A stretch of 64,000 bases of DNA from Amphibalanus amphitrite (Eukaryota; Arthropoda; Thecostraca; Balanomorpha; Balanidae): positions 1,054,001-1,118,000 of the forward strand of contig NW_024881568.1 in assembly GCF_019059575.1 (NCBI RefSeq), in the 5' to 3' direction. The notes beneath the pieces were generated by a model. The model did no database searches. It had not been told where the DNA came from and worked only from the letters and a program-made list of their open reading frames with translations. Every line of letters begins with the position of its first letter. Position 1 is the stretch's first letter. Below are positions 2,796 through 62,750 of the stretch, in pieces. The translations under genes and the position numbers were made by a program.

Positions 2796-3279
2796 AGGGA
2801 CCCTCCCACCTTAACATTAGATTTTAGTTGAGATAGCCAAAATGGGGTCCCTGGCTCACAATTACCGGTTTCGGCACTCACAACATCGAGAAATGCCTTA
2901 AATCGGAAATATTGAATTTCAAAATTGCAGCATTTTGATTCAGAGGGGCTAATGCTTAGGAATACCCCTCTGAATGTGTGACGTCAGCGCAAATATCTAA
3001 CGATTTTTAAATGTTTGACTAAAACGTTTTGTAGCACGAGGTGGTATATGCTATTTGCGCGCAACATCTGCCGCAAACGCCGCACTTCTAAAATAAAGTC
3101 GCTAGAAACAGCGGAGATCCCAAAAAAAGTAAACAAAAGTAAAAGTCTAATATCTTGAAAAACCGGTGAATTTTTTTCGGTGAAATTTGGTAGATACATA
3201 TTCGTTTTCGCTCTTTCTGAACCGAGCGACATCACTTTCATGCCAATTCATAAACTTTTTTGAAGGTGGGAGGGTCCCT
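2796..3279. mobile_element. TTAA-flanked MITE, 484 bp
   Basis: Perfect 17-bp terminal inverted repeats, AGGGACCCTCCCACCTT and its complement, are flanked on both sides by TTAA (2792-2795 and 3280-3283). There is no coding capacity. The TTAA duplication is the hallmark of the piggyBac superfamily, so a piggyBac-like non-autonomous element is the best reading. It contains a TGACGTCA-like half site near 2980. Its right TTAA is shared with the next element. Confidence 0.8.
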
Positions 3280-3283
3280 TTAA

Positions 3284-4205
3284 CCCGCGAGTTGCTGGGG
3301 GGGGCGTTAAACGCCCCCACTTTTTTCGCCGGGCCATAGCATAAAAACGGCGCGCCGCAGGCGCGCCAAATTTTGGGTACCTGTAGGGAATTGATTGAAG
3401 TTTATTGTGACAAAGTTTCAAAAAAATCGGTCGGAAAATTTTTGGGATATCGAGGTTTTAGTGACGTCATGATTTCTGAGTTTTCGACCAAAAACGGCAT
3501 ATGTTCAAAAAATCATATAAAATCACAGAATAGACATACAGACATGCTGTAAACGCCATTAGACTGCCAATACCATGATCAATCAAATGGCTATCTTCGA
3601 TTATTGATTATCGTTCCGCATTTTCCATAATCTTGAACTGAATCTTGGCAATTTTTCGTGACTACTTCATGACCATGATACATGAATTTCTTAAATTGAA
3701 CTTTTTGAGCCAAACACGTACACATATGATAAAATAAATGTCACCATCGTGTTCTACGCCCCAAATTACCCATAAAACATGTGTCACAGGCTGCGAATAT
3801 CAGTTTTGATTTTCGGGGATATGTGCCTACCCGGTTGACCTGACCTTGACCCTGACCTATGCTTGACTGACCCCTACATGGAGCTGACACTCTTGTAGGC
3901 CTTATAAGATGGATTGTGCACCGTTTTGACAGAGTTTATGGCGAGAGGCGCCCATTGCGAAGTCCTGAAGTCCATGCTACTGAAAGCCCGATTTCAGGTG
4001 TTTGACCTGACCTTGACCCGACCTGTGACCTCAAAATTGAACTTTAAAGTACTCATCTGAAGCGTCTCGTCGCGCTCTTTCGTTTGCCGCCTCGTGCGTT
4101 TCGCTGCGCCTATTGGTTCTCGAGTTATCGGCTGGGGGCGTTTAACGCCCCCCCCCCCCCCCCCCAGCAAACGGTGGGTGGCGAAATACCCCAGCAACTG
4201 CCGGG
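3284..4205. mobile_element. piggyBac-like non-autonomous element, AGGTCA-rich
   Basis: TTAA (3280-3283) is followed by CCCGCGAGTTGCTGG. The other end reads CCAGCAACTGCCGGG followed by TTAA (4206-4209). Inside both ends lie G or C runs and a GGGGGCGTTTAACGCCCCC-type hairpin. The interior has TGACGTCA at about 3463, and TGACCTTGA (the complement of TCAAGGTCA) at 3841-3849 and 4008-4016. No transposase frame is present. It belongs to the same group as the elements at 26619, 44096, 46750, 55737, 57013 and 61546. Confidence 0.8.
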
Positions 4206-4336
4206 TTAAGCACACAGATATATAGGTAGCTCAACGCAGTTAATAGCGATTTATATTTGCATAATTATGTAATGCTTTCTAAATCATATGGGGGGTGAAA
4301 AACCAGCGAAAAACAAGTTTATTACATCACCGGTTG

Positions 4337-4619
4337 TTACGAGCGAGCGAGCGCAGCGAGCGAAGTGAGTCTTTTCAATATAACGGAAAAATCTCAGTAT
4401 GAGCGGCCCGGCCCGGCCCGGCCCGGCCCGGCCCGGCCTGTAACGCTTTTGAGAGGCTTATATCTCAGCAACCGCTGGACCGATTGGCCTGCGGTCTTTT
4501 CTGCTGGGTAGCCCCATCCCTTCTACCCCTTAATTGACTACTTTTGATACACCTCAGTGACCGTCGTGGCACGTGCCACGAAAAGTCAAGGGTGTTCAAG
4601 CTGTTTTGCAAAAGTAGTG
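4337..4619. repeat. Right arm of the long inverted repeat
   Basis: Reverse complement of 1-302, with the same palindrome at 4565-4580 and a shorter GGCCC run of about 35 nt (4404-4437). Its outer half runs directly into a second, weaker copy of the same unit (AGAGGCTCATATCTCAGCAG, about 4625), which starts the degenerate array that follows. Confidence 0.85.
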
Positions 4620-5170: not shown

Positions 5171-5478
5171 CTATCTCGCTCGCTCGTTCTTCGCCCAAAA
5201 GGCGTTTTACTGGTAAGATAACGTGTTGTAAGTCAAAGATGAGAGGGCTATAAAAAATACATGTCGCTAGGACTAAAAACGCATGCGAAAGTGTCAACAT
5301 TCCCAATATCGTAACTCATTTTCAACCTCGTTCCAAATGTACCGTCTCAGTTGCTGATTTATCAAGTCAGCCAGGTCGGACAGTTCATTGGCTCGCTGAT
5401 GGAGCGGTGTGGTGTGTCCCGTCTCTGACCCGCGCCGTTCTCCGGCAGGTACTCTCTGCTGTCTCGCCAGCCGCGCCC

Positions 5479-8043
5479 ATGCTGGAGGAACCGCTGAAGA
5501 TGGCCTCGAGCCATGACCACACGGGCGGGCCGACCGGCGGCTACCAGGCTGGCCTGCACTCGCCGCCGCCAGCAGCGCCGCCGTCACCGCCGCCAGAGGC
5601 GCCAACATCGCCGCAGCAGTACCCCTCGCCGGCCGAGCCGCCGCGGCCGCGAGAGACCAGCTCACCCGACTACAGCCTGTACGGGTTCGGCGCGGGCCAC
5701 GGCGGCTTCCCGGTACCCGTGTACCTGGACAAACCCCGGGAGGTAGAGGAGAGGTCGGAGAACGGCCACCCGGAGCCGGCGCCCAGCCCGCCGCCGGCCT
5801 CCAACGGCCACCACGGCAGCCCGCGGCCGGCCGCGGAGCGCGCCGGCTCGCCGCCGCCGGTGGAGCCGGGCTCTCCGCCCGCCGACTGGCCGCGCACCGA
5901 CTCGGTGCTTCGGTTCGGAGACCGTCTCCACCCGCCCCCCTCGGCAGGACCGGAGCGGACCGGTGACGGAGAAGGAGACTGCGAGACGGGGACCGAGGAG
6001 CTCGGATCGCGGACCAGCAGCTCCCCGCCGGCCCCCGGGACTGAGACCGACCAGCGGCCCGAGGGAGACACCGCGCCCGCGCCCGGCTTCAACGCCCTGC
6101 AGCGGCTGCAGCACGCGCTGGAGCAGAACGGCACGTTCAGCGTCTACGGCGAGGAGTCGCCGAACGGCGGCGGCGGCGGCGGCGGCACCGAGATCTACCA
6201 GTGCCACCTGTGCACCTACACGGGCAGCTCGAAGTTCCACTTCAGCCAGCACATGCACTCGCACTACGACTTCAAGTGCTCGCAGTGCGACTTCAGCACC
6301 CACTCCAACGTCAGCCTCAAGGAGCACATGAAGACGGAGCACAACATCGAGATCAAGGACTACATGGACGAGCCGGGGGTCCGCGTGCCGCGCGTCAACG
6401 CCTCCGGGAAGGTGCGCCTGCACAAGTGCAAGTTCTGCGAGTTCAAGACGGCCACACAGGTGGAGCACTGGGAACACCTGAAGGGCCACATCGCTCCTGA
6501 GAAGCGCTTCTGGTGTCACGTGTGTCCGTTTATCACAGACGTCAAACACCACCTCACCTACCACCTGCGTAACCACTTCAACTCAAAGCCGTTCAAGTGC
6601 AACAAGTGCGAGTACTCGTGCGTCAACAAGTCGATGCTGAGCTCGCACATGAAGTCGCACACCAACTTGTACCAGTACCGCTGTGGCGACTGCAACTTCG
6701 CCGCCAAGTACGCCAACGCGCTCAAGAACCACCTGCGCAAGGAGAAGCACCGGCCGGGCATGGTTCTCAACCCGGACGGCTCGCCCAACCCGTTCGTCAT
6801 CATTGACGTGTACGGCACGCGACGCGGACCCAAGATCAAGAAGGACGACAACGGCATGCCGATCCTGCCGTCCTCGTTGCAGGAGAACTACGTCAACTTT
6901 ATCCAGACGCAGAACAAGTACATTACGAGTCCGACTAACCCGTGTAACAACTTCAGCTCGCCGTACCTGAAGTCAGAGCCGCCGCTGGACGCTGGCGAGG
7001 GGAAGCTGGCGCTGCCGCGCGGCTACATCCGCTGTGACATGTGTCCATACAGCACGCCGGACCGGGAGCAGCTGACCCGGCACATGATGAACCACATGAC
7101 GCCCGACAGCCAGCAGCCCGAGGAGACCTCGCCCGCCTCGTCCAAGTCTGGGGACGAGGTCCGCGAGCCGCCTCCACCCCCACCGCCGTCCGGACTCGGA
7201 CGGATGGAGCTGCTGCGCAGCGCGCTGGCACAGCCCGTGCGCCTGCCGACCAGCCACCTGTCGATGACGGCGTCCCCACCGCCACCGCCGCCGCTCCCGC
7301 CGCCGCCCCCACCACCGGCGTACCGCCGCCCGGAGCCCAGCGAGCCAGCGGCGCCGCGGCTGCCGCAGTACGACTCCCTGGCGGCCCACCGGGTGCGCGA
7401 GTACTTCAGCCGCGCGCTGCAGTCGCCGCTGCTCTACAACCTGTCGATGGCGGCCGGGCTGAACGGCGCGCCGCCGCCGGCCGCCGGCTTGCCGCTGCCC
7501 TTCAGCATGACCCGGCCGCCGCCGCAGCCGGCCCCGAGCCCGCCGCACACGCGCGTCGTCTCGCCGCGGCCCAGCTCGCCGCCGTTCTACGAGCGTCCGC
7601 CGCCCCAGAGCGAGTCACCACAGCCGAGCTCGCCGCCCGCCGAGCGCGGCGACGTAGCGCTCGACCTGAGCCGACTCGGCAAGCGCTCGAGCAGCGACGA
7701 GTCTCCTCCTCCTCCAACCAAACACCGGCGCAAGGGGCGCGCGCAGAAGCTGGAGCTGATCTCGCAGCGCCTGCAGGAGGCGGGCGGCTCTCCGCAGCAC
7801 TCTGCCGGCAGCCGGGAGCGCAGCAGTTCTCCGGAGCGCGGCGGCGAGGAGCCGACTGACTGGCGCTCCGGCGCGCACACCTGCCACAACTGCGGCATCG
7901 CCTTCAAGGACCTGGTCATGTACACCATGCACATGGGCTTCCACGACTACCGGCGCCCGTTCAGCTGCAACAAGTGTGGCGAGCAGTGCCGGGACGCCAT
8001 CGCCTTCTTCCTGCACATCGCGCGCGTGCCGCACTCGTCCTAG
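5479..8043 (+). CDS. hb: Hunchback, C2H2 zinc-finger transcription factor
   Basis: Gap-gene DNA-binding repressor/activator of anterior patterning and neuroblast timing, acting in the nucleus. The 854-residue frame has nine C2H2 fingers. Two N-terminal and four middle fingers form one block (residues about 240-425; first Cys 242). An extra finger lies near 519-540, and the terminal pair (CHNC..., CNKC...) occupies about 802-850. The block is followed by the Hunchback basic box [18 protein letters not shown] (438-455). Linkers are Pro/Ser-rich with homopolymeric PPPP runs. An ALDLS sequence (727-731) resembles a CtBP-binding PxDLS motif. I place the start at ATG 5479, because a pyrimidine tract and CAG at 5468-5470 look like a splice acceptor for a 5' UTR intron. 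The frame itself is open from 5407. ATG 5500 has a better Kozak context and is an alternative. The coding region is intronless, as is usual for hb. Family assignment is near certain; the start is not. Confidence 0.95.
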
Positions 8044-10184: not shown

Positions 10185-33982
<23,798 letters not shown>

Positions 33983-41013: not shown

Positions 41014-41180
<167 letters not shown>

Positions 41181-45279: not shown

Positions 45280-45965
45280 TTAAAGCCCTATATCGGCGGC
45301 TCTGAGGACCCACCCAACACCTGCGCATCTAAAGGCCACCCACTGATGACTTGAGGGCCCCACAACGGTGACCCTGAGGGCCCCACCGGCGTCTGACAGT
45401 ACCATGCCGGTCTCTTAGGACCCCGCAGGACTTCTTCTGCCGGCCTAATAAGGACCCCTTGCCGGTCACTGAGACCCCCTGCCGGCTTGTAGAGAGTTCG
45501 CGTCAGCAGCTCTAAAGGCCCCACACCCGTCTGTAACGGCTCTACACCAGCGTCTATGAGGACCCGGAGCAACGCCTGTAAGGACCCTCATCGGCGCCTC
45601 TGAGAGAATCACACTAGCACCTCTGATCGCCCACACCGGCACCTGCATGGCGGCCCCACACCGGTGCCTCCCTTACCGGCGGCTCTGAGGGCCCTACGCC
45701 GGTGATTCTGAGGGTGCCACCGATAACTGAAGGCACCACACAAGCCCTTAGTGTAGCTGAGCTTTAATCCCATACCGGCCCTCCGAGGGCGCCACGTCAG
45801 TGCACTCATTGCCCCACACCCCTCCCTCACACCCGGAGCGGGTAAACTGTGTTATACCTATAGCAACGATTTTACCACCGTTGTACGTTATGTATTTCTC
45901 AAAGTTGACTCAAAATGGTCCAGTACCAAATCTGGCCTGCCAAACTTATGGCCAAGGTCAGGCCC

Positions 45966-46251
45966 AAACACGTTTTGGGCAATCAGTCTCAGTCCATGAC
46001 TCCATTCTTCGGCAACTACGGTGCAAGGCCGATACTGTAGAAACTTGCAATTTGTACCCTTGACCTGACCTTGACCTTGACCTCAAACTTTAAATTAAGT
46101 GCATGTTTTTAGTTATTCGTGATGAGATCTTTCGATTGGCGTTTGAATTTTCCAAATCAGACCAATAGTTCGGGAGATAACAGGGGGGTAAAATTTTTCC
46201 CCCCAGCCCCGCGCGTTCGGCTGGAGAGTGGAGGCCCCAGCCCCGCGCGGG
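45966..46251. mobile_element. Truncated piggyBac-like element (right end only)
   Basis: ACACGTTTTGGGCAATCAGTC through the TGACC cluster matches the right third of 44096-45279. It ends CCCCGCGCGGG followed by TTAA (46252-46255). The left part is missing or too diverged to place. Confidence 0.7.
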
Positions 46252-46606
46252 TTAATGCATTGGGTGAGCCAAAATTGTTTTACAGTGGCGCTATTAAAAC
46301 AAGCTCTCGAACCGATTTAACATCATTTCTTGCATGATGCCTGATGGCTACAGTAAAAAAGAACAGCTAAAAAAAACTACAAAAACTATGGAATGCCTTT
46401 CTGAAAGCTATTGAGCACCCCCAATGATTTTTGGAAAACTACACCCATGCAATACACTGCGCAAATGCGCGACACCCTTCGACGAGAACCTGCAGGAATT
46501 GATTTAATACCGTGCTCTTATATAATATTCAAAGAAACTTCACAGTAGGTACCTACATATATTCGACCAATGGTCATGTCAATATAAAATATATGCAACA
46601 GTACTA

Positions 46607-49600
46607 CCGTAAAGTGGGGCTATTTGAGACAGTGCACAGTGGGGATTTTTCCGATTTAGCACGTATTTATTCGTAGAGGGCAAACCATAGGTAGAATTGT
46701 AGCCAGATTGTGCACAGATGTTGGCTGGTGTGTCCTGGTGAGAATTTTACCTGTAAATGTGCATAATCAACATAGTATAGGGGGTTCAATTGGACCCCCC
46801 GCTCAGCCGTTTGGCCCCTGATCAAGCTAGAGCTTCGCGGAAAAGTCAAGCGTGCTGCCTATGACGAAATTAGGCCGAATATATCCAATTTCAAAGTCCA
46901 AGGTCATAAGCTGACTTTCCAAGTCAGTTTAATGACCCAACTAAAGTTGGAAAATCGAGACCTCTTGAAACTTCGCAAAGTTAGGGTGTTACGGGGTATT
47001 TTGGGGTGCTGATCACGAATTTCATGTTAGTTTTGATCACAGACGATGTCTTTATGCATTTAGGCCAGGTCGGGTCAGGTCAGGTTAGATCAATTAGTAG
47101 GCGTCCTGCCGGCCATCCATAGAAGTGTCACCTACTACTGATAGCTTCGTAACATGGAACGAAGGCACTAGAACTACTTCGTAAATATTCAAATGGCTGC
47201 TAAAATCGAAATCAGCACCAAAAACTACCCTAGAAACAAGTAAAACTCGAAAAAGTGAACCAAGGTCACCAAAAGGTCAATGACCTTGACTTGACCTTCA
47301 CGTGACCTTGACACCCACCATTATGCATGGCACCAACATCATTTCACATATTTGAACGTTTAAAACCACAAAAAGACTGGAAACCGCGGATAATGTGAGC
47401 TGGCATACGCCGAATCGCGATTCCGGCCAAACATGGTCTCGAGAAATATGCCACAGGTCAAAGGTCAGTTGGGTCAGAGTCATGAAATTTTTAGTTTAGA
47501 TGTAGAATTGATGATCTCGAGGGTACCGAAAGTTTCGGCGCGATCGGCCGCTTTTTGCGCGAGTAATTTGCGGAAAACCATTGGGTTTTATCCGACCCCT
47601 TCCCCCTCCCCCTCCCCACAAGTGCGATGGTTAATAAGGTTACGGTATGTATAATTTACGCTTGTCATCCTATTCCTAATGAATGTGTCTCAGAAAATAT
47701 GCATCATATAAATCACGAAGTAAAATTATTCGCCTATGTCCGGAACATACCTATATCGTGCTGTTTGCCCTAGCGCTCCTCGAGTGGGGTGTTAAGATAC
47801 TCTAATGTGAATATTCCGTGTTCAGGCAAGTTTCGGCAGCCAAACTAGGCGTTGTCTTGTGCAGAAGAAAGTGGCGAATTCGATAGGATATATTTCGGAG
47901 TGGAAAAGTGTGGAGAACATTGTTGATTTCCTACATTTATTTAGAATACCATTCCTTCAATATGGTGTCTGTAAGGGTTTTTTTTGTAAAGGGCATTTTT
48001 GTGACCTTAGTAAGGTTGTGGCATACTTTCCGTTTGCCATTCCATTCCTAATAAAGGTGCCTTTCAGACGATATGCAACTTTAAGACCTCGCAAGATTAA
48101 AACCAACAGGACAGGACAATGAAATTGAGCTATACTTTCGGGCCTTGCTGAGCCCATTGAGTAATCACGCATGAGTGTGAACTTTGGGCGCATTTTTCCT
48201 AGTTTTACTGTGGACATACAGATAAAACAATGCCATATATGAAAAATTCAGACATTTCTTAGCCCTACTGACACAAAAAATAAACCAAAATCCAAAAAAT
48301 ATTTTTTGAATTAATAGGCGCTAGATGGGAAAAATCCCCACTGTGCAGTGAGGCTATTTGAGACAGTAAGGTAATGGTATAGTAAAATCGCTGTAAAATG
48401 AAAACCGTTTGATGTTTTTTCATCATTTTTGCTTAGGCTAATGTGGGATTGAACAGTGAATGCTCTGAATAACCTTTTTGAAAATTTCGAAAAGTTCTGA
48501 AAGAAATTTGCAATAAAATACGAAATACAGAAAAACGCACAATTTAAGTTGCTCGAAAAGCACCCCTACCTGCAGTTTAAAAACGTTGAAGTTTTAACAG
48601 CTTCGCCACTGTATCTATCGTTACTACCTTTTTGGTTATAGGCTAAGCACATTTTTCATGAAAATATTATATATTGTTAACGGTACTGCCGATTGCGTAA
48701 CCCATTGTATCAGAATCCCGATGATGCCCACGTCAAACCTCAACGGATATGCCAATTAGCTGATGATAAAGGTGATTGGGTGCACCCGAGAAGACTTACC
48801 ACCATCCACCTGAAGTGCATCGAACGTTCGACATAAGCAACACCGGTGAATCGGTCGTGGTCATAAACGTGCAGTGGGTTCATGGTAGGTACTTTTAGCA
48901 GCAAGCAATATTTACATGTTCGTAGTGTAACATAATAACCCTTTAGCTGGTGACCAAACTAGTTATTCTGATGAATATGTGCTTAAAATGTGCTTCATCA
49001 GTCACTGACTCATTCGACAATCAACATATGTCTACCTTGGTTGACCAAAAAGCACCATTGAATGTTACTTAACACATGAACGTACTGTTAGATGAGCCTA
49101 TCCAAGTACTTGATGTGGTAGGGTAACCGGCCAATTGATACAGCATGCAGCGATCGAAGAAAATCGGCATAAAATCAAAACCGTTTAACATTTTTCTGTT
49201 ATTTCTTCGAATGGAGATGTACAATGGAAGAAACAATCATGCAGACCATTCACTCAAATGTTTTGGGAAACCTTTTGCCTTGTTTGATTCATTACAGTGT
49301 GCTTCATAAGGTAGCGAGACTGTCTCAAATAGCCCCACCGACTTTCGGTATATCTGTTTTCCTGTCACAGGGGCTATATACAAAAACTTACTTTCAAAAA
49401 TTTATTGTCGATGACTTTAAAATAGTCCTTGATGATCATCCTGTCAGTTTGAAAGCTATGGGTCACATCATATTATGATAGCCTTAGCATATAGTGATGC
49501 AATTTTATACCCTACCAAAATGAAGTGTCCTACGAAAAAGGAAAAGATTGAATATAAAGGTCATATAACAGTCTTTGAAAAAACAATTTTTGCCAAAATG

Positions 49601-49901
49601 ATCAAAATTCAATTTCCAAATGCATGGCGTTTAAAAAATTATCTCTAGCGTGACCGATGTTCTTTAATTTCTTTGCAACTAAAACTGTCTCAAATAGCCC
49701 CACCCTATGGGGCTATTTGAGACAGGCTTTAACATAAAAAATAACCTTAATCATTATTACTAGCTGAACCAAAATACACCTTTATGAAAGAGCTTACAGA
49801 AAACTACATTTTTGCAATTTACATGCTATAAGAAATATGAACCATCTTTAAGGGAGAGGCCAAAAACTGTAAAATCCGTTTCAAATAGCCCCACTTTACG
49901 G
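46607..49901. mobile_element. TA-flanked element, 3.3 kb, with nested insertions
   Basis: Terminal inverted repeats begin CCGTAAAGTGGGGCTATTTG and are flanked by TA (46605-46606 and 49902-49903). The GGGGCTATTTGAGACAG block recurs internally at about 48351, 49320, 49686 and 49714. A second inverted pair (TGCACAGTGGGGATTTTT at about 46631 and its complement at about 48331) suggests an element inside the element. No transposase frame was recognised. Mariner-like by the TA flanks. Confidence 0.75.
46750..47630. mobile_element. Diverged piggyBac-like element, nested
   Basis: The interior closely parallels 57013-57905 (AAGCTAGAGCTTCGCGG near the left end, AGTGAACC..AGGTCA in the middle, GCGCGATCGGCCGCTTTTTG near the right end). 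Left flank TTTA, right end GTGCGATGG followed by TTAA (47631-47634). Many AGGTCA units. Inserted in 46607-49901. Confidence 0.7.
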
Positions 49902-49903
49902 TA

Positions 49904-50689
49904 CTCCAAACTACCATCTAACATCGTAGGTACGGGAACCTTCGCTCCTGATCCGAAGTGCCATCCAACCATTACTTCTTATATCATTTCGGTACTATTC
50001 CACTGCCTCTCCTCGTCATGAGGCGGCGGTCGAGCGGCGTCGCAGTTTTACCGGGGTTTCCAGTTGCCCGCAGAACCGGTCCCAGCCACCGTCATCGGTG
50101 ATATGTGGTCGCAAACCAGTCTCCGGCTTAGTGTGTTTGCTCATTGCCTCTCTAGAACTCTGCACACGTCTCTCTGTTAGCCCATCGGCCTGCGCGATGT
50201 CATGACAAGAGTCCGACTCTGGCGAGCCAGTTGGCTGGTTGGAACTGATTAGGAAGAGTTATCCGTGCATTTACATATAAACAATTTACCGGTAACCGCT
50301 GTCTATTCACAGCAACTCTTGAAATACACACGACAAAGCAGGTAGATGTGCCAATGCTCCGCCTATTTATGCTTTATGAACGGAACGAATTTCAATTTTT
50401 AGCTTCCGACTAAACAGGAAAATAGCATTTTTGTAGTTTCCGTCACTCATGATGAACGACGTGATGTATATCGCCAATTAGAGGGACGGTCCGGTGCCGG
50501 TCCAGCCACAGTGCTGTCTCCGACCTCATCTCGTGACAGCCGGAGGCAGCGGCAGTCGCCACATACAAAAAGGCCGTGCCAGGCGGACCCTGGCACAGCC
50601 GGAGAGGATGCCAGCCTGGCACAGCCGGAGCGCTGACAATGGGCGGACCAGCCTCCGGCGGACGGGAACTGATCGCGGCTGCTGCAGGG
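49904..50689. other. Intergenic DNA without recognised genes
   Basis: Nothing recognised between the 3.3-kb element and the next minisatellite. Confidence 0.4.
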
Positions 50690-50945
50690 GAACAGGAGAC
50701 GGCAGAGCTGACAGCCTCACATCGGGAGACGGCAGAGCTGACAGCCTCACATCGGGAGACGGCAGAGCTTACAACGGAGACAGCGGAGCTGACAGCTCAC
50801 ACGGGAGACGGCAGAGCTGACAGCCTCACATCGGGAGACAGCAGAGCGCACAGCCTCACACGGGAGATAGCGGAGCTGACAGCTTCACATCGGGAGACAG
50901 CAGAGATTACAGCCTCAATCGGAGACGAAAGAGCTCACAGCAGAG
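50690..50945. repeat. 30-bp minisatellite
   Basis: About eight units of GGGAGACGGCAGAGCTGACA plus GCCTCACATC. Because 30 is divisible by three, it gives a repetitive frame (ETAELTASHR) that is not evidence for a gene. Confidence 0.85.
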
Positions 50946-51579
50946 CCTAGCGCTTAAGCTTGAATGGTTCTCAGACTGATCATTTTGTCTGGTCGATGGA
51001 GCAGTATGCTTACTTGGGTTAAGACTTTGGAGATGGCAAAATGCAGCGGGTCACTTGCACACATTTACTGAATAAGGTTGCAGAGAGAGCCCATTTCTGG
51101 CACCGAGCGCAGCACCTTGGTCATCGAGTGGCCACCTCAGAGTCTTATCGCGGCATTCTGAGTCACTGGTAATTTATTGCTATGTCCTCAATGCGCAATA
51201 GCTTTGACGTTCGGAAATAAAGAGATCCCAGTAAGCCGATAAGGAGACGTGCATCCATACAGCTTCATGGAAAACTTCCAAGATAAGCAGCACGAACTCC
51301 AAAAATGGTCGCGCACCGTTGAACGATAAATCGCCTCTCGATCGCCTATTTCATCCACCGCAGCCTCGTACCGATAGAGCAAACCGGGCTGGACGTGAGT
51401 GGACTGTCGAACCTCCTTATAATGCCCCTAGTGCCGCCGAGTGTATACCAAAGCTGCTCGCATGCACTCGGCGTCCCACACTGGGCCTCCATCAACTCCG
51501 GTCACGTCACCGGCGTCTGCGCGCATTGCATCAGCCGCCGACGTCTCGCCGGGCGGGGTCTGAGCCAGACATGTGCATG

Positions 51580-52340
51580 GATCCGAGTGATGGATCTATG
51601 ATCTCAGTGGATCTCGAAGCAAAGTACAGGCTGGGATCTATGATCCCACCGGATCCGGCGTGAAAAATACATCTTGGATCTATGACCTTATATGATCTGA
51701 CGATTATTTAAGAACATGGATCTATGATCTGAGTGGATCCCACCATGCACCACATTTGAAACCATGTTTTAAAGGGTTTCTATGCCAATAAGTGACACAA
51801 AACTGTGGATTATGACGTGTGATCACATAAAATCACTAAAACAGAATGTTTGTGAGTTGAAACAAGTGCTTTTTTGGGATATATGTGTTGACAAAAAATA
51901 AGTGAGGATCTATGATCTCACTGGATCTCAAGCAAAATATGAGACTCGGATCTGTGATCCCTACGGATCTCTCGATAAATTACAGAGCTGGATCTATGAT
52001 CCCGTCGGATCCGAGATCAGGATCCGTGGGATCAGATCCCAGATCCATTTTCTCGGATCCATGCACATGTCTGGTCTGAGCCATCGGCCGTCGCCGACCG
52101 ACAGACAGCCGATTAGTCCCATCAACCACCGAAGTCTCATCAAGTCATTAACGTCCTACCAGCCGCCGACATTCGTCGCATCAGCCGTCGAGGTCCGTCC
52201 TATCAGCCACCAACGACTGCCGGGACAGCGCCCCACCGTCCCGCCATCCGCCGACGTCCCATCAACCGACCCCGTCCCACCAGCCGCCGACCGACGTCCC
52301 ATCATCCACTGAGGTCCCATCAACCACCGACGTCCCACCA
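51580..52340. repeat. GATC-rich and CCATCAACC-rich repeats
   Basis: 51580-52060 repeats TGGATCTATGATC-type blocks (GGATCTATGATCT, GGATCCGAGATC). 52080-52340 repeats CCCATCAACCACCGACGTC-like 21-bp units. Both are degenerate. Confidence 0.65.
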
Positions 52341-52599
52341 GCGCGCCGCCCTACTGCACCAATCCTATATGAGCGCTGTGTGACAGTCGCCCAGTCAAGG
52401 GCAGTCCGAGCAATAGCCCCCCAGTCACCAGCACGCTATTCGCCAAAACTGGCTGTCCGGGAAGGCCAGTACTAGCGCTGTATGTATGTCGGGTGACCGG
52501 ACTGAAAGGCGGCGGTGACGTCAGTGACGAGCAGGACCAGCGCCATAGACGGATAAATAAGGCAGACGCGAGGCGTCGAATGTCTGCGGGAAAATGCAT

Positions 52600-53440
52600 T
52601 AGGCGTGGAGTCGCTGAGAGTATAGATAAGAGATGGACAGATGCGACATATAATACACTACATTAGCTGCAGATAAGTTCATGTTTCAGCGTATAAAAGT
52701 TCCCGATGTAATATAATTATCTGGGTGTACCTAATGTCGTCATTGACGAAGGTGATCGCAAAGGTCACGACCCGTCACGATAAAACGCACCAGTCAATTT
52801 TCCAATCTGCAGTACCCAATCGATCTAGTTATGTTGTCGCAATGCGTATTCTCCCGTCATGGACTGGGAACTGACTCACGCAGCCTCTGTTAATGTGTCT
52901 CACATATCCTCCAAATGATATTTGACTAAAATAAATACCAAATACGGTATTCAAAACCAATAACCCATGAAATAATCGCATATTATATTTGAACTACGAA
53001 CGGACAAATGCTCAAAGCTTTTCAGGATTTGAATTTTCAAACGGCAGATATAGGGCCAACAATCGGGCAGAATCGCATACCAAAGCGACGCCTCGGTCAC
53101 CTTTCTGAAGTGCTGCATCATTCACAGGTGCACACAGACCCGTGTGACACTGCCGAACGGTCCCACACGTGCAGTGTCCAATGCAGATGTGTCTGCCGGC
53201 CGTGCGTCGGCCGCTCGCTCGTGCTTTGTTCGCGGCTGGGCCGGCCGTCCGCTGTGCTGGCGAGTGGACCAAACCGAACCGGTCCGGCGGGCCGGGCCGG
53301 GCCGGGCCGGGCCGGGGCCGACGGACGGCCCATTTGGCCACTGGTGCCGGCCACTGCTCTCTTCTGGGCTGCTCCGAGAGAGAGAGAGAGGCGCCCAGGT
53401 AGGTGACCAGGTTTCGCCGGTCTACCGTGAACGATGGTGC
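52600..53440. other. Intergenic DNA without recognised genes
   Basis: No conserved frame. A short GGCCGGGCCGGG run at about 53289-53316 resembles the GGCCG run in the inverted-repeat arms at 185 and 4404. Confidence 0.4.
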
Positions 53441-53455
53441 AGACGCAGCGGGGGT

Positions 53456-53557
53456 AGAGGAGAGGAGAGGAGAGGAGAGGAGAGGAGAGGAGAGGAGAGG
53501 AGAGGAGAGGAGAGGAGAGGAGAGGAGAGGAGAGGAGAGGAGAGGAGAGGAGAGGAA
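53456..53557. repeat. (GGAGA)n microsatellite
   Basis: About 20 copies of GGAGA/GAGAG, followed by more degenerate purine-rich DNA to 53620. Confidence 0.97.
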
Positions 53558-53619
53558 AAGGAGATGAGATGAGAGCAGGGGAGAGGAGGTTGGAGAAGAG
53601 GGGACGAGACGATGCGAGA

Positions 53620-55732
53620 CATGCTGGGAGTACAGAGGACACGAGATAAGACGAGAAACCAGCCCAAAATGCTTAACAGATCTCAGCGGGATAAATGCTA
53701 AGTTGCTAAGATATACTGGTTCCTATGTCGAAATGAAAAGATCCGTTGATCGCATAATCAGCGACGGACAGCTGCAGACGGGGGCTGAGCTGGGTTACGA
53801 TACACAGACGGGGGCTGAGCTGGGTTACGCTACGCAGACGGGGGCTCCGGTCCGGTATGCAGATCAGGCGCGGAGACGGCGTGGCGTCTCCACTCTGACA
53901 GGATCTGTTCACACACCGACCGGACCGCACGGCCGAGCAGCGACCCAGCGTGCGTGTAGCCTCTGATTCAGCGGAACACACGACGCGCGCACTCCGACGC
54001 CGCAAACGGCGCCTACGTAACGAGTTGGTCACACCGCGCAAAAACGCTCACCTGGTACTGCGGCGGTCTCAGGAGGCTGCGACTCCAACTGTCGGAGAAC
54101 TCTGCTGGCTCACTCACACTCAACGCTCACTCTATCACAGCCGACCTCCACACCACTTTTCTATCCTCACTGTACACTGTATCTCTCAGCGTAAAATATC
54201 TCGCTCTCGCCTCTCCTGGGCGTCGTCTGGATACATTGGCGCGGCTCGGCTGCCTTCGGCCGGAGCTCACCTCGCCCACTGCTGCGGGGACGTCGGTCGT
54301 CCGCTCACTGCTGCGGCGGCCACCGCCGGCACGGCAGCGGCGGCGGCGGCGGCGGGACGGCCGGGGCCGAGCCTTTTGTGGTGATTCGTAGTCCGAATGC
54401 CGCGCGGGGCGAACCGCGATGGCCTGCCGCTGCACGAGCAATACCGAGCGACATGTATGTTAGTTTGGATATTTATTTAAAAAAAATGTTTTGTGAAATT
54501 CGGATAAATTATGAAGCCCCACGGGCGATTAATTGAACTGTTTTTTTTTTCTGCAAAAGACATTTATTTTAAACATGACATTATATCCAGAAAACAAAGC
54601 ATTTAGCTTCGCCCCGTGCATTGAAAGTGCATCTATTACAAAGTTAACAAAATTTTGAAAATTGAAAATCGAACATGACGTCACTCTGACGTCATTTCCG
54701 GCCGACCTATGATAGATACGAAGTTCAAATTTTGACACAAGGTGTCAAATTGATGCAGCATATGTACCTACTGAAAGTTTGGCGGCGATACGTCAAGCGG
54801 TTTAGAAGTTATTGCAGAAAAACGGGAGGGGGGCTATATGAATAGCCCCCCTCAAGCCTCTTCGGCACACCAAAACCACACGCTTATTTCTCTTTTGGCT
54901 CAAAACTCGGCAACGCATTCCATACACAAATCAGGACAGGAAGCCTCCCATTAAATGCCAATCTCTACCAGCTCCAGAAACTCTCCACCCCTCATTGCGT
55001 TTGTCACAATGAACCAGAAACAATAGGTATAGAACGTGTGCAGTAAAGCTCTCATGCCCCGCCAGGACGGTTTCGCTGGCGCCGCCTCTGCGACTCCGTG
55101 CAGGCGGCACCGTGCAGGGCATGGCACGGGCCGGCCGGCCGGTGGAGAACGGTGCTGCGGCCAGCGGAGAAAGGTGCCGACCGCGACCGGCACTCGGCGG
55201 CGACCCTCGGCGGCGGGTCGGACTGGGCCGGCACCGGGGCGGGGCAGGGGAGCGAGAGGGGAAGACGGAGGTGGCAACGGGAACTGGAAATTTTTTCATC
55301 ATTACCCAGCCCACATAGGTAGGTGTCAGCTGTGATAATAGGCATTCGCTTTCTGTGCGTTCGTGTGCTGAGACTATCCACCGAGTGCCGAGCGCCTGTC
55401 GCGCGAATCATGCCTGTCGGCCTCAAATGTTAACTCAAACAAGCCTCGATAGCAAGGGATGGGCAGATCACGCTCCCTATATAACCCTCGCCCGTATCGA
55501 TCAGACCCTCCCCACTTCTTCCGACGAGTCAGCTCTGCGGAACGATCTCGAGCTTCGTGGAAAACAACGAGCGTCTTGAAGAGAAGAAGCCTCAGGAATT
55601 GTAGTAATTTTCGACAAGGTAAACCTTTCAAACGATCGCTTCGTAATGGTCGACAATTGCTAAGAGAAACAGACAATAGGATGGATAAAACGTACCAATA
55701 AGTCTAAGAAAATTGATATCGTTGACCCACGT
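53620..55732. other. Intergenic DNA with repeat fragments
   Basis: A 32-bp tandem (ACGGGGGCTGAGCTGGGTTA) runs at 53778-53850. About 54530-54870 shares a short block with the TTAA elements (GCGGTTTAGAAGTTATTGCA, TGACGTCA twice near 54675-54695, a GGGGGGCTAT hairpin) and is probably a decayed copy. No gene was recognised. Confidence 0.4.
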
Positions 55733-55736
55733 TTAA

Positions 55737-56643
55737 CCCTCGCCCGCACATGCCATTTTCCCATCCTAGAACGCACATGGGGGGATGGTTGCCACCCCCC
55801 CCCCCCCCGCGCCATTTCGTTCCTGTTGGAGATAGAGCTTAGCAGTAAAGACCAAAAAGATTCTTTGGGAAGAGACGAATCCAATGATACCCAGTTTTAC
55901 CTTCTCAGGTCAGTCATTGACCTTCCAGGTCACGTCAAACTAAAAAATGTTGCTGTTTTGGGTCACCGTTGGATATCAAGTGCGCTGCTTATCAAATACC
56001 GATGACGATGCTGTTTTCTGGTGCCAAGCCAGCTAGAACCTCTTTGTCACACTACCCGACCAGAATTTTGCTGCTGAGGTCATTTCAGGTCAAGTTAGGT
56101 CAAGGTCAATTATATGTGTTTGTATGTCTGTGTGTGTCTGTGTGTATACTGATGTGTGCACCGATTGTTTTTGGGTCCATATTACATGAAATCATGATCT
56201 GAGAAGCTTTTACCAAAAATGCAGTCAAAAAACTTCACAAAAAGTAAATTCAGCTTGCCTAAAACGCAATTATCTTAGATGACCTAGGTTGACCTTGACC
56301 CTGACCTTGACCCCTGTACATCGTCGAACAACATGTTCCATGATAGGTGGGAGGTAAGACTGGCAAAAAAGGCCGAAATCAGGGTGTCAAAAGCTCACAA
56401 GGCCCATGGCAAGCGCAAGATGTTGAAAATTGGCCATTTGGGTCATGACATGACCTAAAAAACAAGGTCATATCTCCGAAACCAAAAATCACAGAAACTT
56501 GAAATTTTCAGTGGACATCAAGAAAGGATAGAGAAGCAGCTATACCAAAAATCAGCCTTCTAGCTCTAAAAATGTTGAGTGCAGAGCAGAAAGACTACCT
56601 GGGGGGGTGGCAACCCCCCCCCCCCCCCATGTGCGGGCGAGGG
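55737..56643. mobile_element. piggyBac-like non-autonomous element, copy B
   Basis: TTAA (55733-55736), then CCCTCGCCCGCACATG; the right end CATGTGCGGGCGAGGG is followed by TTAA (56644-56647). It is 907 bp and is the inverted near-identical partner of 26619-27524. TGACCTTGA occurs at 56290-56298 and 56302-56310. Confidence 0.92.
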
Positions 56644-56655
56644 TTAATTCCATAA

Positions 56656-58079
56656 GCGTAGGAACCATGGGTGCAAGGGTGCAGCTGCACCCACAATATT
56701 TCTCTAGTGGGTGCAGACAATGTATTCTGCTCCCACAATAATCTGAAACAAAAACCCCTTTTCTCATCAACACTACTTCCCATGTAGCACGGCAAATTCA
56801 GGATATGTTGCCTACTATCCATCTTTCGAGGCATTTGCTACTGTGATGGTCTTCAAAACTTACATTTATGCTGAAAAAAGGGAAATGGAGCATGTGATTG
56901 AACACAGTTATCGAACCGATAACCCACTGTCAAAATGTTTAGCCCGATATCCTCGAAAATGGCTAAGTTGGCCGCTTTTACTTTTTGCGGTAGTCAATAT
57001 TGACAATATTAGCCCTCGAATGTGTGCGGCGTTTTCCAGCTTCTAATGTGTAGGGGGAGGGGGGTCGGTCGGACCCCCTGCCGTTCGGTCCCTTATCGAG
57101 CTAGAGCTTCGCGGAAAAAACGAGAGTATTGCCTGTGACGAGAGGAAGCCGATGATACCCAATTTTAAGGTCCTAGGTCAATGGTCATTGGTTGACCTTC
57201 CAGGTCAGGTCAATATTCCAAAAGTCGGGAAAATCGGGAACTGCTAGAACTGCGTAAAGTGAAGCTGTTATCGGGGTTTTCGGGGTGCTGATCACAAATA
57301 TTTGATGTTAGTTTTGATCACAGATGATTTCTTCATGCATTTAGGCCATATCGGGTCAGGTCAGGTCAGGTCAACCATTAGGCTTCCTACCGGCAATCCA
57401 TAGTAGGTGTCAACTACCACTGACGGCGTCGTAGCATGTTACGAAGGCACTAAAACTACTTCGTAAACGTTCAAATGGATGCTAAATTCGAAATCAGCCC
57501 GATAAACTACCCTAGAAACATTTAAACTCGAAAAAGTGAACCGAGGTCATCAAAGGTCAATGACCTGACCTGACCTTCAGGTGACCTTCACACCCACCGT
57601 GATGCATGGGAAGAACATCATTTCACATGTTTGGACGTCTACAATCACAAAAAGACTGGAAACGCGCGGATAATGTGAGCTGACATACGCCAAATCGCGA
57701 TTCAGGCCGAACATGGTCTCGAGAATCAGGGCACAGGTCAAAGGTCTTTTGGGTCAGGGTCATGAAATTTTCAAAGTAGGTGTAAAACTGATCAACTCGA
57801 CTCGAGGTAAAAGTTTTGTCGCGATCGGCCGCTTTTTGCGCGAGTTATTTGCGAAAAACCATGGGGGGGGGGGGGGTTCATCCGACACCCCTACACATGC
57901 GAGGGTCAATGCTTCCAAATGCACTTATCGGTCGGTACCTTTTCGACATGGTACACCCTCAAAGCTCGCAACGAGCCTTCGCTCGGGTGTCGCTCCCTAC
58001 CCCCCCCCCTTCCCCGCTTCACCGGCCATGGCTGGATTTCTGTACCCATGCACCCACAATGTTCCAGCCGTTCCTACGC
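56656..58079. mobile_element. Short inverted-repeat element, interrupted copy
   Basis: Ends GCGTAGGAAC (56656) and GTTCCTACGC (58070-58079). It matches 59590-60195 in inverted orientation (GGGTGCAGCTGCACCC, the CGAGGCATTTGCTACTGTGA block, the CCATGGCTGGATTTCTG block). A TTAA-type element (57013-57905) sits inside it. Without that insertion it is about 530 bp. No coding capacity. Confidence 0.75.
57013..57905. mobile_element. piggyBac-like element nested in the 56656 element
   Basis: Ends CCCTCGAATGTGTGCGG and CACATGCGAGGG. Flanks TTAG and TCAA are diverged from TTAA. AGGTCA repeats lie at about 57356-57373. It shares its interior with 46750-47630. The inverted sister repeat at 59590-60195 lacks this segment, so its insertion is directly visible. 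Confidence 0.8.
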
Positions 58080-58913
58080 CCATGTTTAATTCAATTTTTA
58101 AGCCCTTCAAGCAGTCAACGGGATAAACTTAGCTACGCCTCTCATGGACAAAAGTCACTAAATACAAACAACCATCGGGTTACAGGATGCATTCAATGAT
58201 GAATCAGAGAAGGGACCTCGCGGACCATCTTCACACCTACCTTACGCTGAAGACATCTCAGGCTATTAAAAATCTTGACTCAAGAGAGCATTTTTTGCTG
58301 GAACTTTTGATAGGCGCGCTAGAACGGTGAAAAAACTTGAATGCGCTCAGCTCAGTGTTACAAATTTATTTACATAGTCAGGTCTATTCTCTATAGATCA
58401 GGTTTATATATCGGTCAGGTCATGACCTTTCTCGGCCAGGTCATGACCTTGATCTTCTGTCAGAATTTCGAGTTGACCTTTAAGGATTTACTTAAAGATG
58501 ATTGGACTAGGCTCGACGCGAAAAGCACAATACCGATGTCCGTTACAATGAACGCCATTCAAGCTTTGAGTCAAAAGTTACTATTTTGCAGCTAAAAAAG
58601 AAACTCAATTTGGACGTTTTAATGCACCGTTTAGGAAAAATATCGAAATAGGCCAAAGTAAGCATTTTTCTTACCTCAGGTGACCTGAGCTTTGGCCTGA
58701 CCAAAATAACATTTGCACTTACCTACCTACTTTATCACGATTTTATTAACTCTTTCACACGCCGCTTACTTGTGATTGTCATGTAACTAATTGTAATTGT
58801 TCTTCCGTGACGCAGAAGCCGTGTTGGAGGGTGGACGTAATCATCCCATTCCACCCCACCCCGATGTGTTTCGATGGGACCGCTGCTCTGGTACAAACTA
58901 CAAAGCTATTTAA

Positions 58914-59577
58914 TCCGCGCCGAACCGGGCGGACGTTTGGATGCTCCCTCCCGTCTAGCTTGGGTACTGGGCATGGTATTGGGCCTAGTGACACACGGTA
59001 GGTAAATGGTGTTCGAAAGAGCGTTATTAAAAGTAATAATAGAAGTTCTTCAGTTAAAGCTTAGATTATGTCAATAAGTAACCCACCAGAGGTCATCAAA
59101 GGTCACATTTCGCCTACCTATTTCAACGCTTCTTGACGAATCGGCGCATAACTTTGGAGCGAATAAAAGAGAGCGCCGCCGAAAAGCGCATTCGGATAGC
59201 CATTCAAAACACTTAGAGTAATGCCCTCAGAGTTTAGGTCTAAGGTCAGCGGTTAACCTACAGAGGGCAAAGACCTGCACGACGTTAATTTTACTGGCGT
59301 AGTCTTTTTTCGTCGAGACGCGTCGAATAAATAATTGCTTGATGCCTATTTTTTTTTTTCACTCGGCCATCGAGCGGGAGCGGGGAAGGGCAGCCCCCTT
59401 TTTTCAGCATTATTCTTAAAGCACACCACGCAAGCATACAAGCATACATGCATTTTAGCATGCGTGTTATCGGCGACCCGTCTGACCAGACCGGGACGGT
59501 GCCCCCTGACGGTTTTTTTCGCGATTGCTGAAAGCCAACGGGGGCGCGTTGCTCGGCAGCCCCCAACGGGGCGCGTG
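58914..59577. mobile_element. Possible TTAA-flanked element
   Basis: TTAA at 58910-58913 and 59578-59581. Ends TCCGCGCCGAACC and ACGGGGCGCGTG are only loosely inverted. The interior has AGGTCATCAAAGGTCA (59090-59105) and a GGCAGCCCCC run near each end. Probably a diverged member of the group. Confidence 0.5.
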
Positions 59578-59589
59578 TTAAAAGGGCCC

Positions 59590-60195: not shown

Positions 60196-60393
60196 TTACT
60201 ACTCTTATGGGCCCATCAATAGCACTTCGGCGATACCTATCGCCTAGAGGCTGCAATGGGGCCCGGCTTAGAGAACGGTGTCAGACCCTCAGAGACCGGC
60301 GTTGGATCCAAGGCTCAGCGAAGGGCCTCAAAGGCGGCCCCAGATGGGGCCCCAGAGATTTGGGCCCTCAGAGGCAAGTGCATGACGCCCAAA

Positions 60394-61506
60394 GGCAGGG
60401 GTGTAATTTTGTATCTCTTTGTGGGAGCAGATGCGCCCACAATCCTGAACTATGTCCCCACAACGATGAAAATGCACCCGCAAGTCTTTTACAAGCGTCC
60501 TTTCGAGAGCACGACGCCCTTCGCATGCTCTAACGGCGTCCTCCTGACCGTCTCGCGTTCCTGGATAATATAGCGCTTTTAATCGATCGGCGCCATTCTG
60601 GGAGAACGACGGCCTTTTGACAGCACTGCGCCATTCTCATGGTCTAACGGCGCCCTCCTGACCGTCTCGCGCTCTTATGTCTCTGCCCATCGTGCATCCC
60701 TCGACTGTTCGGCGTCCTTCTGCCCTCTCAGCGCCCCTGGAACATACAGCGTTTTCAATCACCCGACGCCCTTCTAGGAGAATGGTGCCCCTTTTCATCG
60801 CCCTCGTCACCTTCTGGCGCCCCTATGTCCCCACCAATTTAGCACTATTGACTGTTAGACGCCCTTCTGGCCTCCCAGCGCCCCTGGACCACATAGCGCT
60901 TTCAATCACTCAGCGCCCTTCTAGGAAAATGGCGCCCTTTTCATGGTCTCACGGCGCCCTCGTAACCGTCTGGCGCCCCTACGTCCCCACCAACTTAGCG
61001 TTACTGACTGTTCGGCGCCCTTCTGGCCTCTCAGCGCCCCTGGACCATATAACGTTTCCACTCACTCGGCGCCCTTCCAGGAAAATGGCGCCCTTGTCAT
61101 GGTCTCACGGCGCCCTCGTAACCTTCTGGCGCCCCTTTGGCCCACCAACTTACCACTGCTGACTGTTCGGCGCCCTTCAGGCTACTCAGCGCCCCTGGAC
61201 CATATAATGTTTTCATTCACTCGGCGCCCTTCTAAGAGAATGGCGCCCTTTTCATGGTCTCACGGCGCCCTCGTAGCCGTCTGGCGCCCCTCTACATTTT
61301 TAACGCCCTTCCGGTCACTTTACACTGTTAACCGTGCATTTGTTTAGTCAGACATGTCACTTGAAGCGCCTTTTCGGCTAGCAATGCTATCAAATTCGGT
61401 GTTAATTTAGGCTCCCACATAAATAATATCCATTGCGCCCCAAGGCGGTCTGGCACCCCTGCAGCTGAGCACCCACAATCATTTGAGGAAAAATTACACC
61501 CTTGCC
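60394..61506. mobile_element. Element carrying a GCGCCC minisatellite
   Basis: Ends GGCAGGGGTGTAATTTT and AAAATTACACCCTTGCC (imperfect 17-bp inverted repeats), followed inward by GTGGG(A/T)GC...CCCACAATC at each side. Its core is the 155-bp minisatellite listed next. The edges match those of 43090-46455. No transposase. Confidence 0.65.
60705..61330. repeat. About 155-bp tandem repeat rich in GGCGCCC
   Basis: Four units starting CTGTT(C/A)GGCGCCCTTC at 60705, 60852, 61008 and 61163, with a diverged unit upstream (60535-60700). Each unit carries about six (C)GGCGCCC or AGCGCCCC blocks, so GGCGCC palindromes recur every 20-30 bp. The 160-codon frames over it are shadows. Confidence 0.85.
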
Positions 61507-61545
61507 CAAAGGTAGGTCTTGCCCCCCCCCCCCCCGAGAACTGAA

Positions 61546-62750
61546 CCCGCGCCGGGCCGTCCCCGCCCTGCGGTTTTTCGCAGATATCTCAAAAACGGCG
61601 GCGCACAGCGCTGCTGTTTTTTGCACACCTTTTTGTGCATCTTTTCACACACGTGAAAATTTCAGCCCCACGTTGCTCAAGGTCATGTTACCAAGTCACG
61701 CCAAGTGACCTCACCGCAGAAAAAAAAAATAGAATGCTCGTCATGGCAACACCGACTGAATGATCATTGCCTTGAAACTTTCAGCGATTGATAAGAGTAA
61801 CAGTACCTATCATTTACAAAACGTACCTATGTCTCGGAATTTTGATATCGGTGACCTATGATCAGGTCAATTTTGCGGCCTCTCCATTATTAATCAATGG
61901 GATAAAATTGAAATGCGTTTCTTTTGCAGGAACGCCATTCTAGACACTCTCAAACATCGGGATGCAGGTAAAATTGACACACTGAACCGGAAATTGGAAA
62001 ATGGCACCTGTGACCCCTCGTTATGTCCCCGAGGTCATCTCAGGTCACGAATAGCGTCTAACAGGTTTTCGCTAATAACTTCTGATTGAGGCATGCTAGA
62101 GCAATGAAAACGCCTTAGATGTGTTCGGCTCGACGATGCCGATCGACTAATATGCAACATGAACTTTTCCGGTCAGGTCATGACCTCAACCTGAGGTCAA
62201 ATTTTCAAGTTGACCTTTCAAGGCCAAATTAGGTATAGTTCATTCAAAGCGTCTCGACGAGAAGAACACGATGCCGGCAAAAGTGATGTCGTGGCTCTTT
62301 TTTTGAGTCAAAACTTATTGCTGAAAAAAAACATAAAAAACATTTTTTCGTGAAAACGGCTATTTTTGGAGTTTTTTCCCTCTGGAGGCTAAACCGTTAG
62401 CCTGGGCTCAAATCTGAGGACATGGCGAAAGAACGTTAAAAGAGCTATCGAATGCGCTTTTCCGCGGCGCTGTAGCTCTATATCGGTTCCCGAGTTAGCT
62501 GTTGGCAGTTTCCAAAATGTTGAAATAGCCAACATTTTACCTTTGGTGAGTCCTCTGGTGACCTGACCTTTGACCTGACCAAAAAATGGCCGACGTGTTT
62601 CGTCTTTATTTTGGATGTTCTTTCGATTGCCCTTACCGTGTGTCGCTACTCGCTACCTGACCCAGGAGCAGAGTTAGAAGGGGTGTTTAGACACCCCCCC
62701 CCCCTCCCTCGGCCCGGCGCGGAAGTCTCGGAGCACCGGCCCGGCGCGGG
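61546..62750. mobile_element. piggyBac-like non-autonomous element
   Basis: Ends CCCGCGCCGGGCCG and CGGCCCGGCGCGGG. Flanks are TGAA and ATCA, so a TTAA duplication, if present, has decayed. Interior: AGGTCA/TGACCT at about 61860, 62030, 62185-62215 and 62560-62580, and a C run near the right end. 1205 bp, no transposase. Confidence 0.7.

Follow-up and report, generated by a model that had tools for sequence, protein, structure and literature searches.

The 64-kb window analyzed here, that is, the whole stretch of Amphibalanus amphitrite contig NW_024881568.1 between positions 1,054,001 and 1,118,000 (GC content 52%), carries nine copies of short mini-elements, designated by subfamily letter and start coordinate (Table 1). 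All results concern this one window and these nine copies, which amount in effect to about two independent lineages. Within it, we describe the anatomy of the elements, the enrichment and variant specificity of the AGGTCA half-sites that fill their interiors, and the phasing of half-site clusters with respect to one transposon end. The element starts proposed by an initial annotation hold when each element is read through; cluster phasing, a tip motif duplicated on one end, and two relics are new. The elements span 664–1205 bp, and the longest open frame within the bounds of seven of them is 94 codons. Short, with inverted ends, devoid of coding capacity and present in several copies (related ones 81–99% identical), they qualify as miniature inverted-repeat transposable elements (MITEs). 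Strand denotes the direction in which the duplicated-motif end comes first, and distances are counted from that end.

Table 1. Elements and relics in window coordinates, with cluster centres in nt from the duplicated-motif end and AGGTCA counts (observed/mean of 500 dinucleotide shuffles of the element)
Feature	Coordinates	Strand	Flanks (left/right)	Palindromes	Half-site clusters	Cluster centres	AGGTCA observed/expected	Remarks
A3284	3284-4205	-	TTAA/TTAA	3300-3318, 4134-4152	3836-3858, 4003-4031	191, 354	6/0.41	lone GGTCA ~534 nt from duplicated-motif end
B26619	26619-27524	-	CTAG/CTAG	26634-26654, 27455-27477	~26793-26812, 26956-26983, 27155-27186, 27326-27356	193, 356, 559, 716	13/0.64	inverted near-copy of 55737
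A44096	44096-45279	-	TTAA/TTAA	~44112-44134 (one mismatch), 45210-45232	44769-44790, 44912-44949, 45080-45108	186, 350, 504	16/0.54	
45966 fragment (A-type)	45955-46251	-	TTAA right side only		46061-46083	180	5/0.14 (counted over 45900-46251)	truncated; duplicated-motif end retained; inner limit approximate; 118 columns at 90.7% to 44096
C46750	46750-47630	+	TTTA/TTAA	~46780-46799	near 46901-46937, 47073-47082, 47263-47308, 47455-47476	170, 328, 536, 716	9/0.36	ends decayed; 81% to 57013
B55737	55737-56643	+	TTAA/TTAA	~55779-55801 (one mismatch), 56601-56620	55907-55932, 56077-56108, 56280-56307, 56451-56470	194, 358, 561, 718	12/0.54	
C57013	57013-57905	+	TTAG/TCAA	57060-57078 (duplicated-motif end only)	57175-57212, 57354-57373, 57544-57587, 57735-57762	182, 351, 553, 738	14/0.51	
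D58914	58914-59577	ambiguous	TTAA/TTAA	none clear	half-sites 59090-59105, 59243-59248		3/0.21	
A61546	61546-62750	-	TGAA/ATCA (decayed)	62680-62697 (duplicated-motif end only)	61677-61711, 61852-61869, 62032-62047, 62175-62216, 62559-62576	181, 562, 720, 890, 1055 (differ by 1 nt between two computations)	13/0.52	
Relic	54725-54851	none		54828-54851 (further palindrome)				resembles short-end side of 44096, 78% over 110 columns
Relic	58380-58780 (limits approximate)	-			AGGTCA/TGACCT at 58417-58479 and 58681			related to 61546, 71% over 119 columns and 91% over 33
Non-member	2796-3279	none	TTAA-flanked					AGGGACCCTCCCACCTT inverted ends; Kolobok/T2-like

The architecture of the ends, compared with that of the Trichoplusia ni piggyBac, supports well that the elements are non-autonomous members of the piggyBac superfamily. 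A TTAA target-site duplication, as is typical of this superfamily, flanks four of the nine copies on both sides, and 26619 has an exact CTAG duplication instead. TTAA is present on the right side alone in 46750 (whose right flank was read one base further out) and in the truncated 45966, and on neither side in 57013 and 61546. The tips start with CCC and finish with GGG, again as expected of the superfamily. Its reported hallmark, CC[C/T]T (PMC2872659), fits the CCCT of 26619, 55737, and 57013 but not strictly the CCCG of 3284, 44096, 45966, and 61546, the tips of 46750 and 58914 being decayed.

Beyond the tips, the ends share a layout, not letters. On one end, the tip motif recurs beyond a spacer and is then followed by a G/C-rich palindrome. 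The second copy lies ~27 bp inward (offset 26–28 in 7/9 such ends, with B counted twice; 34 in 45966; unrecognizable in the decayed 46750), and the eight opposite ends have no common offset. The palindrome starts at bp 43–54 on 7/9 duplicated-motif ends and at bp 31 in 46750, with none in 58914; on four of the eight opposite ends (3284, 44096, 26619, and 55737) it directly follows the tip, at bp 15–17. Its cores vary (GCGTTAAACGC, GCAGAATCTGC, GTGGTTGCCAC, GTGTTTAGACAC, and GTCGGTCGGAC). A window-wide scan blind to the elements retrieved 10 G4...C4 palindromes, compared with 0–3 in 30 block shuffles; eight are in elements, one in the relic (54828), and one elsewhere. The latter, at 25167–25188, lies outside the recognized elements and may mark another decayed end.

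In T. ni piggyBac, bp 34–63 of the right end (RE) are described as nearly identical to bp 7–35 of the left end (LE), shifted by 27, and a palindrome at bp 17–33 as bound by a CRD dimer, with TTAA as the target (PMC7351741). The window elements resemble this LE35/RE63 arrangement in the target, in a palindrome at about bp 17–33 on four of the eight short ends, and in another end that repeats the tip-side sequence shifted by 27 bp and then continues into a palindrome. It is because end offset and palindrome position agree that we make the assignment, which takes the notion of a group of piggyBac-like mini-elements beyond its original basis of TTAA and CCC...GGG. An end asymmetry in which the tip motif recurs 27 bp inward on a single end fits the superfamily, the duplication being a feature of T. 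ni piggyBac rather than of all members; piggyBat is described as different (PMC11707139). Unlike T. ni piggyBac, the elements have other letters, G/C-rich palindromes in several versions within one window, short ends of which half show no clear palindrome, no transposase gene, and a phased half-site interior.

All nine copies, one of them truncated, carry AGGTCA/TGACCT clusters as first annotated, with 3–16 AGGTCA each against 0.14–0.64 expected, so that the counts exceed the shuffle mean in every copy. With 26619 set aside as a near-copy of 55737, the remaining eight hold 78 AGGTCA in 7,008 bp versus 33 in the other 55,602 bp (2796 and 26619 masked too), some of the latter falling in the relic at ~58380–58780 or belonging to short tandem repeats around 15578 and 17390. 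AGGTCA tops the enrichment of six-letter words counted at least 12 times (18-fold). Among its one-letter variants, only AGGTCA (18.5-fold) and GGGTCA (3.7-fold) stand out; AGGGCA follows at 2.5-fold, every other listed variant remains at or below that value, and CGGTCA is at 0.2-fold. A purine precedes GGTCA in 95 of 100 sites of the eight copies and in 60 of the 65 that lack another GGTCA start 1–6 nt upstream (46 A, 14 G). This specificity is the one expected of a nuclear-receptor response element, and we take purine-GGTCA to be a nuclear-receptor half-site, an identity to which the variant test lends support.

Neighboring sites in seven copies are separated mostly by steps of 5 bp (22 cases) and 6 bp (16), these predominantly in direct orientation, then 10–11 bp (15). 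The extended monomer site of FTZ-F1/ERR-type receptors, TCAAGGTCA, is indeed present as proposed (14 occurrences in the eight copies). However, 11 of these lie inside GGTCAAGGTCA, that is, they arise from half-sites in 6-bp tandem and are thus no separate evidence for FTZ-F1/ERR; the remaining three are too few to judge. The counts leave FTZ-F1/ERR specificity unsupported, and we rejected TCAAGGTCA as proof of such a receptor on grounds of circularity. A further motif assigned to two copies, TGACGTCA, occurs in 3284 (once) and 44096 (twice), but also once in the non-member 2796. Scans of the whole window with Rfam (gathering threshold) and for tRNA returned nothing.

We then define a cluster as two or more GGTCA with a 40-nt cluster gap. 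Clusters typically occur ~185, 350, 550, and 720 nt from the duplicated-motif end, with a best period of 174–178 bp. In the eight copies that can be oriented (58914 was left out as ambiguous), the first multi-site cluster is invariably centered at 170–194 nt. The 18 multi-site clusters of five copies yielded a period of 178 bp (R 0.88), reached by 0/5000 random placements, and three representatives (44096, 61546, and 55737) a period of 176 bp (R 0.87), reached by 1/5000. Adding single-site clusters left the five copies at 0/5000 (R 0.74). When 58914 was turned round, as its similarity to 61546 suggests, its cluster fell at 184 and single sites at 332 and 572; in the resulting set of seven copies, neither random placement nor rotation reached the multi-site phase in 4000 trials, and with single sites included the figures were 0 and 1, respectively. 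For the representatives, 1 of 4000 random placements reached the multi-site phase. Further exceptions to the pattern are single sites at 416 in 44096 and near 90 in 61546. GC content around clusters rises slightly at the center, which we attribute to the motif itself.

The phased interiors belong to several families. By blastn, 44096, the 45966 fragment, and 3284 form a related A group; the B pair 26619/55737 is near-identical in inverted orientation (812 nt at 99%; 95.9% over 919 columns); and the C pair 46750/57013 is 81% identical. B and C are alike over approximately the first 200 nt (71%). Element 61546 matches 58914 (D) over 105 and 55 columns at 72–76% and also the relic at 58380, and a masked comparison of cluster surroundings revealed likeness between 44096 and 61546 at two clusters, the third (z 8.2) and the first (z 4.1). 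The likeness of the 58914 interior to 61546 points the opposite way from its own duplicated tip motif, hence the ambiguous orientation. Between A and B/C, comparison of 20 pairs of like-numbered clusters showed no interior similarity (mean z 0.54; none with p ≤ 0.01). There are at least two lineages without interior similarity, A/D and B/C. Besides lying in opposite orientation, 26619 and 55737 are bounded by different exact duplications of 4 bp (CTAG and TTAA, respectively), a sign that they inserted independently, one of them at a non-canonical target. Beside 55737, 72 nt (55656–55727) match the 61546 interior at 74%, as if this copy had inserted into an older relic of the 61546 type.

The initial annotation had suggested that the half-sites may be maintained for a reason. 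Cluster position and the B–C comparison speak for it, the pair 46750/57013 weakly so. From 46750 to 57013, GGTCA was kept in 10/12 sites versus 37% of control 5-mers (p 0.002) and AGGTCA in 6/9 (p 0.03). Column identity for this pair did not differ significantly, at 91/111 in sites versus 616/812 outside (p 0.19). Between B and C, GGTCA was kept in 7/16 (or 7/18) sites versus 37/653 (655) control 5-mers, in a global alignment that may favor shared motifs and partly within the similar first 200 nt. The site-retention tests indicate that a cluster persists longer than the sequence around it, although its individual sites turn over.

The remainder of the window sets these elements in context. Element 2796–3279, earlier credited with the same flanks and another interior, does share TTAA, but its ends are of Kolobok/T2 type and place it outside the group. 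It contains no AGGTCA or GGTCA and starts with AGGGA beside TTAA. AGGRR in this position is given as the mark of Kolobok/T2 elements such as T2-MITE/Xmix of Xenopus, whose TTAA flanks and AGGRR tips it matches (PMC6004289); unlike these, the half-site elements start with CCC, not AGG. Since 2796 lacks half-sites and its tips fit Kolobok/T2, we consider it a different kind of element, and a single piggyBac group including it was rejected because ends and content differ. It adjoins 3284 with one TTAA common to both, as if one had inserted at the target site of the other, and a 177-nt inverted repeat (43–219 and 4404–4580, 97% complementary) brackets the pair. About 1 kb separates the end of element 3284–4205 from a long open frame with C2H2 zinc fingers (5254–8043), which we take to be hunchback. 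Another copy had been placed in a transporter intron, which was not borne out: one stretch (16312–16701, minus strand) has a Pfam SNF match, and among the other frames scanned the two beyond 27524 gave no Pfam match. Four tandem copies of a ~156-bp unit occupy 60652–61265, shortly before 61546, and other arrays have 32-bp units (36218–36537) and 74-bp units (11285–11653). As to relatives elsewhere, viral contigs returned 0 matches for each of three patterns, in a search from which the genome of the window itself may be excluded, and at least 119 stretches with the GGTCA repeat in bacterial and archaeal genomes, of which the 80 listed carry bacterial or archaeal titles, were taken as chance and not used.

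A spacing of 177 bp is close to a nucleosome repeat. Our tentative explanation, which we hold to be possible though somewhat short of probable, is that these are piggyBac elements of the non-autonomous kind and that their interiors attract a host nuclear receptor at intervals on the scale of the nucleosome. PiggyBac transposases encoded elsewhere would move the elements in trans, reading subfamily-specific ends built to one plan. If T. ni piggyBac is a guide, the transposase would dock at the duplicated tip and, with its dimeric C-terminal domain, at the palindrome. A host receptor that binds single half-sites (e.g., of NR5/FTZ-F1 or ERR type) would most likely occupy the clusters, in the germ line or early embryo and with about one cluster per nucleosome interval. 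The bound receptor might then keep the element and its ends accessible to the transposase when and where transposition is heritable. Element anatomy, half-site enrichment, variant specificity, and phasing are observed in this window; receptor binding, nucleosome register, and a benefit to transposition are inferred. There is a precedent for parts of this scheme in mouse, where NR5A2 is described as binding TCAAGGCCA in the short interspersed nuclear element (SINE) B1 and nucleosomal DNA at entry–exit sites, its role in genome activation being debated (review PMC11202083). Like SINE B1/Alu, the window elements would be mobile elements carrying sites for a pioneer nuclear receptor. SINE B1/Alu differ in being retrotransposons, in that the account in this review mentions no phased array, and in that binding is shown by CUT&Tag (cleavage under targets and tagmentation).

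Several observations weigh against receptor recruitment at nucleosome-scale intervals. The orientation rule, the cluster definition, and the period range were all set after the positions were seen, and the roughly two lineages are represented by elements of which two, 44096 and 61546, are alike around clusters 1 and 3. For the three representatives, rotation reached the observed phase in 147 of 4000 trials (150 with single sites included), and random placement with single-site clusters did so in 55/4000 or, in the other computation, 32/5000 (R 0.66). The phase is poorer when counted from the short end, where random placement and rotation reached it in 145 and 1144 of 4000 trials for the representatives (1394 and 1653 with single sites included) and in 29 and 416 for the seven copies. 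Cluster spacings vary between 154 and 208, and a single gap measures 381. The cluster near 370 is missing from 61546, GGTCA is absent past ~540 nt in both 3284 and 44096, and 58914, if oriented by its own duplicated motif, departs from the pattern, its sole multi-site cluster then being at 480. In the direction 57013 to 46750, retention of sites barely exceeds that of controls (GGTCA in 10/18 versus 39% of control 5-mers, p 0.11; AGGTCA in 6/14, p 0.30). Many half-sites overlap at 5-bp steps, so neighbors cannot all be bound together. As for the ends, single tip-motif copies were matched by 0 to 40 of 500 shuffles, a modest result in 3284, 58914, and 55737 (36, 22, and 40), and that of 46750 by 154; the opposite ends of 61546, 58914, 46750, and 57013 (4/8) have no palindrome at the expected place. 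Finally, no transposase was found by Pfam in 10 scanned of the 24 frames of at least 60 amino acids inside seven elements, which gave one below-cut-off match to a domain of unknown function.

The interiors could alternatively go back to a single old element, or to a satellite, with a 170–180 bp unit, their clusters persisting through slippage and gene conversion of (GGTCA)n with no selected binding. MITEs that carry or seed satellites are on record (Xstir, miDNA4, and pearl; review PMC9659126), and the predominance of direct 5- and 6-bp steps as well as the common first 200 nt of B and C are what such a history would leave. However, with half-sites masked, 33 pairs of units from within one element were no more alike than background (mean z 0.49; one pair with p ≤ 0.01). 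The alignable tandem monomers of a pearl- or Xstir-type satellite-bearing element were accordingly not detected among these pairs. Slippage would also not readily give the mixed orientations and 10–16 bp steps of several clusters in B, C, and 61546, and the purine that precedes GGTCA in most sites with no other GGTCA start just upstream likewise counts against this origin. We regard it as unlikely.

Somewhat less credible still is that the transposase, or a protein acting with it, binds the GGTCA clusters as internal sites that enhance or restrain transposition, and that they are not host-receptor sites. Subterminal repeat arrays occur in many systems, and an inner transposase site is reported to restrict piggyBat activity (PMC11707139), so inner repeats need not be host sites, a further point against receptor recruitment. 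The better register of clusters to the duplicated-motif end than to the other end would likewise suit this explanation. On the other side, clusters extend more than 700 nt inwards, and tips and palindromes differ between subfamilies while GGTCA is constant, which would require one DNA-binding specificity to stay fixed as another changed. That the phasing merely reflects chance and shared ancestry in one window, with a real half-site enrichment but no spatial rule, we deem improbable: few lineages, rules chosen after the fact, and the rotation result for the representatives leave room for it, but the constant place of the first cluster in 8/8 oriented copies (58914, whose own motif would not fit, being left out) and the 1/5000 random placements for the representatives speak against it.

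The nearest precedent for piggyBac mini-elements with interiors more conserved between families than their tips is that of the coral CMITEs. These are described as TTAA mini-elements of piggyBac type whose terminal repeats have diverged while the families have an interior in common; they measure ~100 bp, of which 75 bases form an interior conserved in its sequence (PMC2872659). Unlike these, the elements of the window measure 664–1205 bp, and what A and B/C have in common is a spaced short motif. Among open-licence PMC papers, searched by titles and abstract openings, we found no report of a phased half-site array in piggyBac mini-elements.

Receptor recruitment at nucleosome-scale intervals would have a bolder form, which we consider doubtful: lineages without interior similarity would have converged on, or kept, a nucleosome-scale half-site array registered to the transposon end, the element using a host pioneer receptor to build its own open, evenly spaced chromatin. 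Dispersed copies would then bring receptor-bound arrays close to genes, hunchback among them. Separately, the presence in 64 kb of several palindromes that follow one geometry provides a natural data set on the divergence of piggyBac end recognition. Should the register prove to extend across the genome, mini-element interiors would be spaced binding arrays rather than filler. Were this true, it would open a route to the standing question of why some non-autonomous elements multiply so well, and the elements would serve as a natural probe of receptor and nucleosome spacing.

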